Positions 1,331-5,466 of a DNA stretch of 5,549 nt are shown piece after piece. This stretch comes from Ruminococcaceae bacterium UBA5904 (GTDB lineage Bacteria > Bacillota > Clostridia > Oscillospirales > Acutalibacteraceae): positions 7,693 to 13,241 of the forward strand of contig DJEG01000031.1 of NCBI GenBank assembly GCA_002431305.1, in the 5' to 3' direction. Every line of letters begins with the position of its first letter. Within the stretch, counting starts at the first letter, position 1. The notes under the pieces are model-generated. The model was given only the letters and a program-made list of their open reading frames with translations. It was not told the DNA's origin and ran no database searches. The translations under genes were made by a program, and so were the position numbers.

Positions 1331-2293
1331 TCATTCTTCTAAGAAATCGAACAGTCTGTCGAGGTATTCTTTGAGCGTTTTATTTTCCGCCATATATATT
1401 TCGTGCTTTGCCTCTGGGAATGAAACGAGTTTGCCGGAGGGGATTTTTGAAATAAATTCGTCCTGTGCGGGAAGTTCAACGGATGTGTCTCTGCCCGCCT
1501 GGAACAAAAGGACGTCGGCTTTTACGTTTTTGCAGTTATTTTCGTCGAGCATTACGGGAATAATCTTAATAGCCTGTCTTACCCATGAATACGACGGGCG
1601 CGAGGTCTGATAATTAATGTTGCCGACGCGTTTTTTCTGATAGTAGTCAAAACGAGCCTTGCTTGTGTCATGGCTCTGCTCGTAGGTTCTGTTTACGTCG
1701 AACGGCTTCGTTGTGATAACGGGGTGCTTGCCTCTGCCGAGAAATACTTCGGTCTCTGTTACAACCTTTGCCATGGGAATCGGGAGAGGGGATTTAAAAT
1801 GAATCATCGGCGCGTTGAGAACGGCTTTTTTGAAAATTTCGGGGTGCTGTTCGAGTGTGAGAACGGCGATAGCTCCGCCCATGGAATGAGCGTAGAGGTA
1901 AAGCGGAAGAGAACCCGAATTCGGCGTAACGATACGTTTTATAAATGTGTAGAAATCCTTGACATAATCGTTGAATTCGCTGACATATACGGTGTACGGG
2001 TCGATTGATTCTTTATAAGAAGCTCCGTGTCCGCGGTGGGTTACCGCAAAAACGTTATAGCCCTCGTTTATAAAATAATACGACATCTCTCTGAATTTTT
2101 CGGCGGACTCCGTGAATCCGTGGGAGATAACGACGCTCGCTTTCGCGTTGTCTGTTATGTAGTATTCGTATGAAATAGGTCTGCCGTCGAACGAATTGAA
2201 CGTACCCTCGTTACGTCTTTCGGCTAAGAACGGCTCGACTTCGTTTATCATAATATCCGAGTAATTGTTTTCGTCAAGAATCGGTGTTTTCAT
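1331..2293 (-). CDS. Alpha/beta hydrolase, lysophospholipase / monoacylglycerol lipase-like (PldB type)
   Basis: This is a serine hydrolase likely to cleave acyl-ester bonds of lysophospholipids or monoacylglycerols; the exact substrate cannot be read from sequence. In its 320 residues the oxyanion strand ends in SHGF (57-60). The nucleophile elbow is AHSMGG (135-140, Ser137), with Ala replacing the usual first Gly. The acid is probably Asp269 in FQAGRDT, and the catalytic His297 is in EAKHEIY. Residues about 160-240, between strand 6 and the Asp, form the cap that shapes substrate choice. VFAVTHRGHGAS (81-92) is the conserved stretch seen in this lipase group. There is no signal peptide or membrane segment, so it is probably cytoplasmic. 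The start is supported by AGAGGAAG seven bases upstream. The length and the full triad suggest an intact gene. It is transcribed alone, divergently from the GTPase operon. A general esterase role is the alternative. Confidence 0.9.
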   Translation of the reverse strand: MKTPILDENNYSDIMINEVEPFLAERRNEGTFNSFDGRPISYEYYITDNAKASVVISHGFTESAEKFREMSYYFINEGYNVFAVTHRGHGASYKESIDPYTVYVSEFNDYVKDFYTFIKRIVTPNSGSLPLYLYAHSMGGAIAVLTLEQHPEIFKKAVLNAPMIHFKSPLPIPMAKVVTETEVFLGRGKHPVITTKPFDVNRTYEQSHDTSKARFDYYQKKRVGNINYQTSRPSYSWVRQAIKIIPVMLDENNCKNVKADVLLFQAGRDTSVELPAQDEFISKIPSGKLVSFPEAKHEIYMAENKTLKEYLDRLFDFLEE

Positions 2294-2326
2294 ATCATAT
2301 CTTCCTCTCGTATGAGTTCTTTATTT

Positions 2327-2355
2327 ATTATACATATATTTTATCTCTAATGCAA
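2327..2355 (-). promoter_or_regulatory. Promoter of the hydrolase gene
   Basis: On the minus strand a perfect -10 box TATAAT (2332-2327) sits 17 bases after TTGCAT (2355-2350), a weak -35 with only three of six consensus positions. The start of transcription should lie near 2320, leaving a leader of about 27 bases. Confidence 0.6.
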
Positions 2356-2357
2356 GG

Positions 2358-2386
2358 TTGCAATCTTAATTAAAGAGTGCTATAAT
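2358..2386 (+). promoter_or_regulatory. Extended -10 promoter of the GTPase-glycosyltransferase operon
   Basis: TTGCAA (2358-2363), a 17-base spacer, and TATAAT (2381-2386) preceded by TGC give a perfect -10 with the TGn extension. Transcription should begin near 2393. It is divergent from the hydrolase promoter, the two -35 boxes being only two bases apart and forming the interrupted palindrome TGCAAGGTTGCA (2351-2362). Confidence 0.7.
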
Positions 2387-2404
2387 TAAATTTGCTAAAA
2401 AATC

Positions 2405-2412
2405 AAAGGAAG
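2405..2412 (+). promoter_or_regulatory. Ribosome binding site of the first GTPase gene
   Basis: AAAGGAAG lies seven bases before the ATG at 2420. This fixes the start, which also places the P-loop at the usual distance from the N-terminus. Confidence 0.7.
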
Positions 2413-2419
2413 CGGTCTT

Positions 2420-3559
2420 ATGACAAAAATAGACATATTCTCAGGTTTTCTCGGAGCGGGAAAAACCACTCTTATAAAGAAGCTCATAAATGAGGCGTAT
2501 AAGGGCGAAAAACTCGTCCTTATCGAAAACGAATTCGGCGAAATCGGTATCGACGGCGGATTTTTAAAGGACGCGGGTATCGAGATTACGGAGATGAATT
2601 CGGGCTGTATATGCTGTTCGCTCGTAGGCGACTTCGGTGAGGCTCTTAAAAAAGTTTTAAAGGAGTACGCTCCTGACAGAATTATTATCGAACCCTCGGG
2701 CGTAGGCAAGTTAAGCGACGTTATCAGAGCCGTTCAGAATATTCATTCGGACGAAATCGTACTTGACGGATTCACGACCGTTGCGGACGCGAATAAGTGC
2801 AAGGTTTATATGAAGAACTTCGGCGAATTCTTCAATGACCAGATTGAGCATGCGGGTACTATTATTCTCTCGCATACAAAGGGTATTAAGCAGGACAAGC
2901 TCGATACCGCCGTATCAATGATAAGAGAGCATAATCCCAACGCTGTTATCATTACGACCGATTGGGACGAGCTCGACGGCAAGCAGATGCTTGAGGCGAT
3001 TGAGAGAAAAGACACGCTCGAAGCCGAACTCGAACTTCTTAAAAAAGAGAGCGAGTGCGAGGATGACGATGATGACGACTGCTGCTGTCATCACGACCAC
3101 GAGCATGAACATGAACATCATCACGACCACGACCATGAGCATCATCACCATGACCATGACGAGCATGAGCATCATCACCATGACGACGATGACGACGAGT
3201 GCTGCTGCCGCCACGAACATGACCATGACGAGCATGACCACGACCACGAGCATGAACATCATCACCATCACCACCATCATCATGCCGACGACGTGTTCAC
3301 AAGCTGGGGCAGAGAGACCGCGAGAAAGTTTACCGCGGACGAAATCGAGGGCTGTCTCAAGGCTTTGGAAGATGAAAAGTACGGCACTATATTAAGAGCA
3401 AAAGGCATTGTCCCCGCCGAGGACGGAACATGGATTCATTTCGACTATGTTCCCGGCGAGCCGGACGTGCGCACGGGTTCGTCGGCTATAATCGGCAGAC
3501 TCTGCGTTATCGGCTCTAAGATTGACGAAAATGCCCTTGCGGAGTTGTTTAACGTATGA
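2420..3559 (+). CDS. COG0523/CobW-type G3E GTPase with His-Asp-Cys-rich insertion (putative metal chaperone)
   Basis: The protein probably uses nucleotide hydrolysis to deliver or hold a transition metal, with zinc the most likely for this group; the client is unknown. Over 379 residues it shows Walker A GFLGAGKTT (9-17), the switch I segment ENEFGEIGID (36-45), the family CxCC motif in GCICC (62-66: Cys63, Cys65, Cys66) and a Walker B/switch II strand IIIEPSG (88-94). At the guanine-specificity site it reads SHTK (151-154) where NKxD is expected. Residues 213-288 are a metal-binding insertion: acidic runs, two CCC triplets (221-223, 261-263) and 36 His between 224 and 288. A CobW C-terminal domain follows (about 295-379). 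It is the first gene of the operon, and its stop codon overlaps the next start by four bases. Regulation by a metal sensor such as Zur is plausible, but I see no convincing Zur box. Other COG0523 roles (nickel, cobalt, iron) cannot be excluded. Confidence 0.93.
   Translation: MTKIDIFSGFLGAGKTTLIKKLINEAYKGEKLVLIENEFGEIGIDGGFLKDAGIEITEMNSGCICCSLVGDFGEALKKVLKEYAPDRIIIEPSGVGKLSDVIRAVQNIHSDEIVLDGFTTVADANKCKVYMKNFGEFFNDQIEHAGTIILSHTKGIKQDKLDTAVSMIREHNPNAVIITTDWDELDGKQMLEAIERKDTLEAELELLKKESECEDDDDDDCCCHHDHEHEHEHHHDHDHEHHHHDHDEHEHHHHDDDDDECCCRHEHDHDEHDHDHEHEHHHHHHHHHADDVFTSWGRETARKFTADEIEGCLKALEDEKYGTILRAKGIVPAEDGTWIHFDYVPGEPDVRTGSSAIIGRLCVIGSKIDENALAELFNV
3062..3283 (+). repeat. In-gene repeat encoding two Asp-CCC-His units
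   Basis: Within the first GTPase gene two units can be aligned at a 40-residue (120-base) period. Unit 1 (3062-3181) starts D6-CCC-HH and unit 2 (3182-3283) starts D5E-CCC-RH; each continues as a His/Asp/Glu run. The DNA is made almost wholly of CAY and GAY/GAR codons, and the 18-mer GAGCATCATCACCATGAC occurs twice, 30 bases apart (3137-3154 and 3167-3184). Such DNA expands and contracts easily, so the length probably varies between strains. Confidence 0.8.
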
Positions 3560-4521
3560 TAGGTAAAAAGAAAGAGCCGGTAGAAATTCCGGTATATATG
3601 TTTCTCGGTTTTCTCGATTCCGGAAAAACGACGTTTATTCAGGAGACTATGGAGGATCCGAGATTCAACGACGGCGTAAGAACTCTTCTGCTCTCGTTCG
3701 AAGAGGGCGAGGAGGAGTACGACGTAAGTAAATTCGCAAGCTCCAACGTTTATATGCTCAATATTGACGATAAGGACAAAATGAATGAAGAATATCTGAG
3801 CGAGGAATTTAAAAAATCCAAGGCAATGCGCGTAGTTGTCGAGTATAACGGCATGTGGAACGTTCAGGATTTCTTCGAGGCAATGCCCGAGGGTTGGATG
3901 ATTGCACAGTGCATGTTCCTTGCCGACGCTTCGACGTTTAATTCGTACAATGCGAATATGAGAAGTCTTGTCGTTGATAAGCTCAGCATGTGCGAGATGG
4001 TAGCGTTCAACAGAATGACGAATTCCGACGAGCAGATGCCTCTGCACAAAATCGTCAGAGGCGTTTCCAGACGGTGCGATATCGTCTATGATTACGGCGG
4101 AGACAACACCGTATTCGACGAGATAGAGGATCCTCTGCCGTTTGACGTAAACGCTCCGGTTATTGAAATTGAGGACAAGGATTTTGCGCTGTGGTACAGG
4201 GATCTCATGGACGACATGAAAAAGTATCACGGAAAGACGGTTAAATTCAAGGGAATATGCGCGGTAAATCCGAAGTTCCCCGACAATGTTTTTGTCTGCG
4301 GACGGCATATAATGACGTGCTGTGTTCAGGATATAACGTATTGCGGACTAGCCGTAAAGTGGGATAATGCGAAGTCGATTAAAAACGCGGAATGGGTTAC
4401 GCTCGAGGCGAAGGTTGAAATAAGATTTTCAAAACTTTACGGACGTAAGGGACCCGTTCTCACCGCCGTTTCCGTTACTCCCGCGTCCGAACCCGAGGAG
4501 AAGGTCGCAACATTTTATTAA
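3556..4521 (+). CDS. Second G3E-like P-loop GTPase with C-terminal YcgQ/DUF1980-like (TIGR03943) domain
   Basis: I read this as a divergent CobW-fold GTPase fused to a different C-terminal domain. In 321 residues there is Walker A GFLDSGKTT (18-26) and a Walker B-like VVVEYNG (93-99) that lines up with IIIEPSG of the preceding protein. The NKxD position reads NRMT (152-155). CxCC is absent; the equivalent region is acidic (EEGEEEYD, 49-56). Residues about 222-308, starting HGKTVKFKG and holding CGRHIMTCCVQD (248-259), resemble the soluble C-terminal domain of YcgQ-family proteins, where a TCC motif follows a GRF/GRH strand. That match is from memory. No membrane segment is visible, unlike full YcgQ. 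The start codon lies inside the previous stop (ATGA), with GGAG eleven bases upstream, so translation is probably coupled. Partnership with the first GTPase in metal handling is inferred. A simple 'GTP-binding protein' label is the cautious alternative. Confidence 0.8.
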   Translation: MIGKKKEPVEIPVYMFLGFLDSGKTTFIQETMEDPRFNDGVRTLLLSFEEGEEEYDVSKFASSNVYMLNIDDKDKMNEEYLSEEFKKSKAMRVVVEYNGMWNVQDFFEAMPEGWMIAQCMFLADASTFNSYNANMRSLVVDKLSMCEMVAFNRMTNSDEQMPLHKIVRGVSRRCDIVYDYGGDNTVFDEIEDPLPFDVNAPVIEIEDKDFALWYRDLMDDMKKYHGKTVKFKGICAVNPKFPDNVFVCGRHIMTCCVQDITYCGLAVKWDNAKSIKNAEWVTLEAKVEIRFSKLYGRKGPVLTAVSVTPASEPEEKVATFY

Positions 4522-4536
4522 AGAAAGGCTGATATT

Positions 4537-5466
4537 ATGAAGCTGTCGCTTGTTATCCCGTGTTTTAACGAACAGGACAACGTCAGAGCATTTTATGACG
4601 AGACTCAAAGGGCTTTTAATTCGAAACGTTTCGATTATGAATTCGTATTCGTAAACGACGGAAGCCGTGACAATACGCTTAAAAATCTTCTTGATTTATA
4701 TGAAAGCGAGAGATTTTCGAATATACAGGTTGTTGATTTGTCGCGTAATTTCGGTAAGGAATCCGCCATGTATGCGGGACTTCAGAACGCGCGGGGCGAC
4801 ATGGTCTGTATAATCGACGCCGATTTACAGCAGAGACCCGAGGTTGTTCTCGAAATGATGGATATTCTCGACAACGAACCCGACGTTGACTGCGTGGCGG
4901 CGTTTCAGGATAAGAGGAAGGAGAGCAAGGCTCTCACATTCCTTAAATCGTCGTTTTATTCAATAATAAATAAGCTGTCCGACGTTCATTTTGAAAATGC
5001 AGCAAGCGATTTCAGACTTTTCAGACGAAATGTTCTTGAGGCGTTACTGAACATGACGGAGAGTCAGCGGTTTTCAAAGGGACTGTTTTCGTGGGTCGGA
5101 TTCAACACAAAGTACATTCCGTACACGGTAATGGAGAGAAACGCCGGCGAGTCGAAATGGTCTGTCAAAAAGCTGTTTAAGTACGCCCTGGACGGAATCA
5201 CGGCATTTACGGGCGCGCCGTTAAAACTGCCGTTTGTGTTCTCGGGCGTGAGCGCCGTTTCGGGACTGCTGTTTTTGATAATTTACGCGATTTATTCGGC
5301 GGCGGCAGGCACAGGCTTTCATTCGTGGGCGATAATCTTAACGTTTATAATGCTGTTTTCGGCTGTTCAGCTGTTGTGCTTAGGAATTATCGGCATATAC
5401 CTTTCGAGCGTGTTCTTCCAGAGCAAGAACAGACCGATTGTTATTGTTAAAAAGGTATATAAATAA
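4537..5466 (+). CDS. GT2 family glycosyltransferase, polyprenyl-phosphate (DPM1/GtrB-like) type
   Basis: The enzyme probably moves a sugar from a nucleotide sugar to undecaprenyl phosphate on the inner face of the membrane, supplying a lipid-linked donor for cell-surface glycans. The GT-A domain shows VIPCFNE (6-12), VNDGSRD (39-45) and the metal-binding DADLQQRPE (94-102, usually DADLQDPPE). Further family marks are ASDFRLF (156-162), RFSKGLFSWVGF (178-189) and RNAGESKWSVKKLF (201-214). Two hydrophobic segments at about 231-256 and 263-291 anchor the C-terminus, and the short tail KNRPIVIVKKVYK is typical of the GtrB/ArnC-like group. At 309 residues it is full length. AGAAAGG lies eight bases before the ATG, and only 15 bases separate it from the previous stop, so it belongs to the GTPase operon. 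The sugar is not predictable. No flippase or GtrC-type partner is visible in the window. Confidence 0.92.
   Translation: MKLSLVIPCFNEQDNVRAFYDETQRAFNSKRFDYEFVFVNDGSRDNTLKNLLDLYESERFSNIQVVDLSRNFGKESAMYAGLQNARGDMVCIIDADLQQRPEVVLEMMDILDNEPDVDCVAAFQDKRKESKALTFLKSSFYSIINKLSDVHFENAASDFRLFRRNVLEALLNMTESQRFSKGLFSWVGFNTKYIPYTVMERNAGESKWSVKKLFKYALDGITAFTGAPLKLPFVFSGVSAVSGLLFLIIYAIYSAAAGTGFHSWAIILTFIMLFSAVQLLCLGIIGIYLSSVFFQSKNRPIVIVKKVYK

Follow-up and report, generated by a model that had tools for sequence, protein, structure and literature searches.

A soluble protein joining a G3E-type P-loop domain to the YcgQ C-terminal domain is encoded beside a histidine-rich COG0523 GTPase in Clostridia

What does a soluble protein do that combines a P-loop domain with the C-terminal domain of the membrane protein YcgQ, and where did its two parts come from? 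The question is raised by a stretch of 5,549 nucleotides from Ruminococcaceae bacterium UBA5904 (GenBank assembly GCA_002431305.1, contig DJEG01000031.1, positions 7,693 to 13,241 of the forward strand), hereafter called the window, in which a plus-strand gene at 3556..4521 encodes 321 residues. A reading of the letters alone, the sequence-only reading, had noticed a Walker A motif at residues 18-26 and an MTCC motif at residues 253-256 and had proposed that a G3E GTPase replaces the membrane part of YcgQ. Both motifs indeed lie in a single open reading frame without a hydrophobic segment. The YcgQ C-terminal domain is present, with a match to DUF1980_C (PF21537; E=1.4e-22, 80.3 bits versus a Pfam cut-off of 25.9) and a TIGR03943 score of 92.9 bits, above the curated cut-off of 88.8, and PF09323, the N-terminal membrane domain of YcgQ, has no match. 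The gene product, which we call the fusion, is one soluble protein in which a G3E-type P-loop domain is joined to the YcgQ C-terminal domain. We rejected an origin by chance or by frameshift: at least 8000 relatives pass in sequence databases, and all 120 among the matches listed are full-length.

The DUF1980_C domain occupies residues 199-315 (4150..4500), forms an OB-like beta barrel in the structural model and aligns with YcgQ in a profile comparison (hhalign E=5e-25); its helices and strands follow the order of the YcgQ model with nearly equal spacing. Within it lies the MTCC..D motif (residues 253-259; 4312..4332), likely a metal site. C255, C256 and D259 are invariant in 77/77 aligned fusions, and the counterparts in YcgQ, R216, C221, C222 and D225, are invariant in 59/59 aligned YcgQ sequences. 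The longer pattern GR..M(T/S)CC..D is present in 79/79 fusions from our set of 81 loci, in which L001 is the window itself and L002 is 99% identical to it, and from which L021 and L028 were excluded for a wrong start choice. We also considered whether residues 199-321 could be a normal CobW C-terminal domain, the outcome named in the sequence-only reading as the alternative. This was rejected, as a profile comparison with the CobW_C domain of the neighbouring COG0523 protein gave a probability of 0.7% and the fusion has no PF07683 match. Fold searches with the fusion model were dominated by G-domain matches and carry little information on this domain.

The N-terminal domain (residues 10-190; 3583..4125), termed G2 below, is a divergent G3E nucleoside triphosphatase domain. 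Its fold is closest to YjiA, HypB and UreG, with YjiA as the nearest solved structure. The Walker A motif GFLDSGKTT (3607..3633) contains K24, invariant in 77/77 aligned fusions, and a P-loop lysine is found in all 79 fusions (71 by the first pattern, 8 as GMLESGKT or GFLGSGKS). E96, N98 and G99 of the G3-like motif EYNG (residues 96-99; 3841..3852) are likewise invariant (77/77). The proposal of a G3E GTPase in place of the membrane part therefore stands for the P-loop type and fails for strict COG0523 membership: GCxCC is found in 0/79 fusions, CobW_C is missing, and NR takes the place of NKxD (N152-R153-M154-T155 in the window; the NR pattern in 75/79 fusions). The Pfam cobW match of the fusion, 19.0 bits, stays below the gathering score of 20.7, and a relative, that of L155, clears it with 43.4 bits. 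Hydrophobic segments occur in 0/79 fusions by a segment scan, which is not a signal-peptide test.

The sequence-only reading overlooked a near-constant neighbour. Directly upstream of the fusion, at 2420..3559 on the same strand, lies a gene for a COG0523 G3E GTPase of the CobW family (379 residues; Pfam cobW E=4.7e-37, CobW_C E=1.8e-6; YjiA E=4.8e-20), whose stop overlaps the start of the fusion by the four nucleotides ATGA (3556..3559). We refer to COG0523 proteins of this position as G1. The partner has a Walker A motif, GFLGAGKTT (residues 9-17; 2444..2470), and the metal-binding motif GCICC (residues 62-66; 2603..2617), and both this Walker A motif and GCxCC are kept in 74/74 complete partners. 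A count of 45/74 partners with an NKxD-like pattern was left out of account, since the pattern was not anchored at the correct position. Since GCxCC is kept in the partner and CC..D in the YcgQ-type domain of the fusion, the likely metal ligands are split between the two proteins; metal binding is attributed to the CxCC of COG0523 proteins (PMC9164220). A COG0523 partner is found directly upstream in 76/81 loci, as 74 complete copies and two contig-cut ones (L014 and L035, excluded from the 74), and the remaining five loci have at most 501 nucleotides of upstream sequence each. The intergenic distance, with automatic start choice, is at most 19 nucleotides in 53/74 pairs and 365 at its widest (the distances for L021 and L028 come from the wrong start choice), and in family f40, met in the class survey described below, the gene order is reversed with the pair still together.

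Before its CobW_C domain, the partner carries an insert rich in histidine, aspartate, glutamate and cysteine (residues 212-288; 3053..3283). The histidine content of complete partners is 6.6-16.5% (n=74; 7.3-13.7% in 27 loci of the class survey), and that of COG0523 proteins at the permease-type loci described below is 0.3-5.7% (n=16, of which L177, L181 and L190 were assigned without a permease seen beside them; 0.3-4.6% in the 13 with a permease seen). Partners range from 335 to 442 residues among relatives, and the histidine-coding insert varies in length as if by repeat expansion.

The fusion recurs across the class: 32 of the 196 genomes in a class-wide sample carry full fusions, 34 genes in all. 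For 30/34 the partner is adjacent (28 in loci L112-L141 together with L192, that of genome G138 in L157, and that of G119 by match position only). Two of the other four lie at contig ends, one is without neighbourhood data, and one is partnerless (L159 3162-4097). The latter is a second fusion paralogue, and it is followed by a protein that we take, by eye, to resemble the NifX/NifB-type family. A phylum-wide sample of 398 genomes contained full fusions in 10, two of them outside the class. The DUF318 permease that the sequence-only reading had thought worth looking for nearby was found at 0/81 fusion loci (tblastn, 1e-6), and an ArsP_1 permease at none of the five window proteins scanned with Pfam. 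Whole-genome searches gave no ArsP_1 match in 23/32 fusion genomes, including that of the window, which is 68% complete. Judged by the matches of the genome search, G146 alone among the 32 carries both systems, with COG0523, a separate G2, the permease and YcgQ in L153 (2564-6136) and a His-rich COG0523 with the soluble fusion in L155 (1996-4056).

Where does G2 come from? Searching whole genomes with a fusion profile, we found a second open reading frame of about 520-600 residues beside membrane YcgQ genes, matched through its first 170 residues. In 5/5 of these proteins tested (L142, L144, L147, L151, L152), Pfam cobW and ArsP_1 both scored above their cut-offs. Further G2:permease fusions were found by tblastn and in databases, where they are named 'permease' (for example the protein of 524 residues from Ruminiclostridium cellulolyticum). 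The layout in L142-L152 is COG0523 (G1), G2:permease, YcgQ; the COG0523 gene is divergent in L147 and L149, and it lies on another contig in the genome of L150. In L153 and L154 a separate G2 of 209 and 218 residues, respectively, stands between COG0523 and the permease (Pfam for L153), and L160 and L161 have a classical permease-YcgQ pair without G2. Three membrane helices are present in the YcgQ model. Positive charge is highest in the loop that joins helices two and three (mean lysine plus arginine 4.3, against 1.9 for the first loop and 2.4 for the N-terminus). The C-terminal domain of YcgQ is therefore predicted to lie outside the cell, and in the fusions, which have no hydrophobic segment, the YcgQ-type domain would be cytosolic. 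The kinship of the fusion to this GTPase-permease-YcgQ module appears unreported in the literature searched.

We examined descent with three quick trees of moderate support and midpoint roots. The GTPase-domain tree had 87 rows; the genome surveys contributed 21/34 different soluble G2 and 23/32 rows labelled soluble G1, and the 81 loci two more of each kind. For the YcgQ-type domain, the tree had 59 rows and a sample of 21 fusions. L176, a membrane YcgQ, has no row in the G2 tree and stands among the YcgQ rows of the domain tree. All G2 fall on one side of a branch (support 93, not starred). The soluble G2 form a group that includes one long-branch permease G2 (97), and this sits within a larger group (95) that adds six more permease G2. 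The soluble G1 are placed among G1 of permease operons, in a group of support 98 that also contains those of L143 and L152. The YcgQ-type domains of the fusions are on one side of a branch (92) within a group of support 98 that otherwise holds only YcgQ of G2:permease genomes, 7/12 rows of that kind. Genomes G120, G174, G079 and G021 stand near the soluble parts in 3/3 trees, and f54 in 2/3. Trees constrained to one clade of soluble G2 or one clade of soluble G1 scored better than the free quick search, so single origins of either are not rejected. An origin of G2 as a recent duplicate of the neighbouring G1 was rejected (p 0.0006 for uniting soluble G2 and soluble G1 in one clade; L190, labelled as soluble but in fact the G1 of genome G129, was part of this clade and was omitted from the test of soluble G1 alone). 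As judged from the sequences, the soluble G1, G2 and YcgQ-type domains are placed, with moderate support, among the parts of permease operons, and largely of the same ones. G2 groups with GTPase domains that are fused to, or stand beside, a DUF318 permease; hence its apparent source is this permease-YcgQ module itself, and not an unrelated family. A third DUF1980_C architecture (L091, L093, L096, L097, L105), 152-224 residues long, has one or two hydrophobic segments and lacks the CC motif; a branch of the domain tree sets its members apart on one side.

The genes around the permease form point to metal. FUR regulators occur in 5/13, ABC-3 permeases in 4/13 and either of them in 7/13 of the permease-type loci L142-L154 (tblastn; Pfam for L142, L146, L147 and L152). 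L142 (1-4645) and L152 (372-5921) read ABC-3 permease (with an ABC ATPase in L152), FUR regulator, COG0523, GTPase:ArsP_1 and YcgQ, likely a complete metal-supply cluster. Zur binds upstream of an ArsP_1 permease gene, BAS1632, that is numbered next to the COG0523 gene BAS1633 (PMC6336718). Zinc as the metal would follow from the neighbourhood of the permease form and from COG0523 proteins in general, not from the loci of the soluble form. A Zur/Fur box upstream of the soluble pair was rejected, as exact 7-base inverted repeats were common to at most 2/74 upstream regions; among 12 chosen regions, palindromes exceeded most shuffles only in L149, L152 and L153, and these were mutually dissimilar.

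We propose, with a probability of about one half, that the fusion works in the cytosol as a partner gated by nucleotide, exchanging zinc through MTCC..D with the His-rich COG0523 protein, itself a likely chaperone; the metal, the nucleotide and the direction of transfer are the parts that we infer. G1 and G2 would pair as G3E proteins do in dimers; in HypB-like G3E proteins the nucleotide-bound form is a dimer (PMC9164220). G1 would store and bind zinc through its His-rich insert and GCxCC, and the fusion would take or give zinc at MTCC..D, with the nucleotide state setting the direction. Nucleotide binding or hydrolysis would control how metal is exchanged between the GCxCC of G1 and the MTCC..D of the fusion, as well as its onward delivery to client enzymes. 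On the way to the soluble pair, the permease and the membrane anchor of YcgQ would have been lost and G2 joined to the YcgQ domain, which would have shifted from outside the cell into the cytosol, and the insert of G1 could act as a cytosolic metal store in place of supply by the permease. More tentatively, then, Clostridia may have an unnamed four-part GTPase-driven metal module (G1, G2, DUF318 permease and YcgQ domain) that one lineage rebuilt without the permease: G2 was perhaps cut from the permease and joined to the external metal-binding domain of YcgQ while G1 gained a histidine store, turning a transporter into a two-protein zinc chaperone.

The fusion and the G2:permease operons link YcgR/YcgQ to COG0523 chaperones and partly to FUR and ABC-3 uptake genes, a link that opens their function to direct tests. 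If the proposal is true, some COG0523 proteins have dedicated second GTPase partners, which bears on how these chaperones get and release metal, and the change from membrane to soluble form would clearly exemplify how a transporter module turns into a chaperone.

Several observations weigh against zinc exchange by the pair and the descent that we propose for it. FUR, ABC-3 and ArsP_1 were found at 0/81 soluble-pair loci (tblastn at 1e-6 with seven queries, of limited reach), no Zur box was recognised upstream of the soluble pair, and the L159 fusion has no COG0523 neighbour within about 3 kb on each side. No NCBIfam regulator matched the FUR proteins above its cut-off, a result that gives no support to a Zur identity. 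The named families nearest to the ABC-3 proteins are for zinc (AztB, ZnuB) and the one nearest to the permease part is a Cu/Zn efflux protein, all below cut-off. The Zur sites of BAS1632 are read as activating (PMC6336718). Guanine specificity of the fusion is doubtful because NR replaces NKxD, and the domain orientation in its model (predicted TM-score, pTM, 0.73) is uncertain. In the trees, 5/12 permease G2 and both separate G2 fall outside the 95 group of soluble G2; the G1 of L143 and L152 are nearest to the soluble G1, yet G2 and YcgQ domains of these operons are placed elsewhere. Fine branching is unsure, since two constrained trees beat the free one, and, as the roots are midpoints, the direction from operon to soluble pair is a matter of parsimony.

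Four other explanations deserve weighing, and the confidence given to each does not exclude the others. The fusion could be a switch, in which G2 forms a heterodimer with its COG0523 partner and controls the partner's nucleotide cycle while MTCC..D senses metal and signals loading or unloading. The distribution of GCxCC, 0/79 in G2 versus 74/74 in the partner, would suit such a role, as would the pair staying together though gene order and distance vary and, in L153 and L154, the existence of G2 as a small protein of its own. We hold it possible but doubtful: sensing and carrying fit these findings alike, and the invariant CC pair is also consistent with direct transfer. That the C-terminal domain binds no metal, the CC pair being a redox switch or the OB-like barrel binding only nucleic acid or protein, seems quite unlikely to us. 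Fold similarity does not establish function. Metal is indicated by the COG0523 partner and, for the permease form, by its FUR and ABC-3 neighbours, and the CC..D set is conserved in the cytosolic proteins as well as in those where it is predicted to lie outside the cell.

If metal is handled, it might be a thiophilic or toxic one (copper, cadmium, mercury or an organometal), with the module serving efflux or detoxification and the soluble pair sequestration. The best NCBIfam matches of the permease part are SO_0444 Cu/Zn efflux (E=2e-28) and SaoE (E=2.6e-22), and that of G2 is a CobW-related selenoprotein, all three below cut-off; SO_0444 is needed under zinc or copper stress (PMC3219624), and the large store rich in histidine and cysteine suits sequestration. 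The positive reading of Zur control at the related permease gene (PMC6336718) would also fit efflux. FUR or ABC-3 uptake genes, or both, at 7/13 permease-type loci and the COG0523 partner indicate scarcity of metal, not excess, and we think this reading unlikely. Compatible with zinc exchange, though in our view very unlikely, is a role of the pair as an insertase devoted to a single metalloenzyme such as an M29 aminopeptidase. An M29 metallopeptidase gene lies upstream of the partner in 23/69 loci with more than 1500 nucleotides available (L011 1986-3212, Pfam E=1.4e-161; the 22 others by tblastn). Mapped onto the fusion tree (66 rows, 20 with the trait, after three of the 23 loci were dropped for a stop in the translated match), the trait needs only two changes and therefore comes down to roughly one inherited gene arrangement rather than to linkage that arose repeatedly; the window has no M29 gene by a Pfam scan. 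At 23/69 loci and about one inherited order, the M29 aminopeptidase was rejected as a general client.

Upstream of the pair, a consensus scan found a promoter-like site on the plus strand, TTGCAA-17-TATAAT with TG before the second hexamer (2358..2386). With 10/12 matches it is the best of nine sites in 2280-4620, where shuffles expect 4.1, and it is not functional evidence. An RNA element at the pair was rejected, the sole match being weak (E=0.15) and lying over the His-coding repeat. On the minus strand, 54-1214 encodes a Fic/DOC family protein (Pfam E=1.5e-14) that is not linked to the pair. A family 2 glycosyltransferase (4537-5466, plus strand; nearest NCBIfam PgfS, below cut-off) starts 15 nucleotides past the fusion, and by eye, from the first residues, it follows the fusion only here and in the near-identical L002.

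How does the fusion compare with what has been described? Term searches of the literature, of partial coverage, found no description of the architecture, and an earlier one is possible; TIGR03943 and UPF0703 were not mentioned in the literature searched, and the available part of PMC2770081 contains none of the words fusion, fused or permease. Thus, the suggestion that the combination is undescribed holds for the papers found and not for sequence databases, where it is common. ScfAB, the homologues of YcgR/YcgQ, are of unknown function, occur in many Gram-positive bacteria and affect the infection fitness of one (PMC5584981). With YcgQ/ScfB (TIGR03943, DUF1980), the partner of YcgR/ScfA, the fusion shares DUF1980_C with R....CC..D, but it lacks the PF09323 membrane part and an adjacent DUF318 permease and has a P-loop domain at its N-terminus instead. 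The nickel GTPases HypB and UreG serve nickel clients and have no added YcgQ-type domain. The SO_0444 Cu/Zn efflux family, named for a Shewanella protein of known efflux phenotype (PMC3219624), belongs to the same permease superfamily as the G2:permease proteins (a match below the NCBIfam cut-off), whereas the soluble pair has no permease. The G2:ArsP_1 permease fusions share with the fusion a divergent G2 without GCxCC and a nearby COG0523 gene; there YcgQ is separate, and the fusion carries the YcgQ C-terminal domain where they carry a membrane permease. Finally, the COG0523 metallochaperones YjiA, YciC, ZigA/ZagA and CobW share the G3E fold and Walker A motif with the fusion, which differs from them in lacking GCxCC and CobW_C and in having NR for NKxD; the true COG0523 protein of this locus is its partner at 2420-3559.

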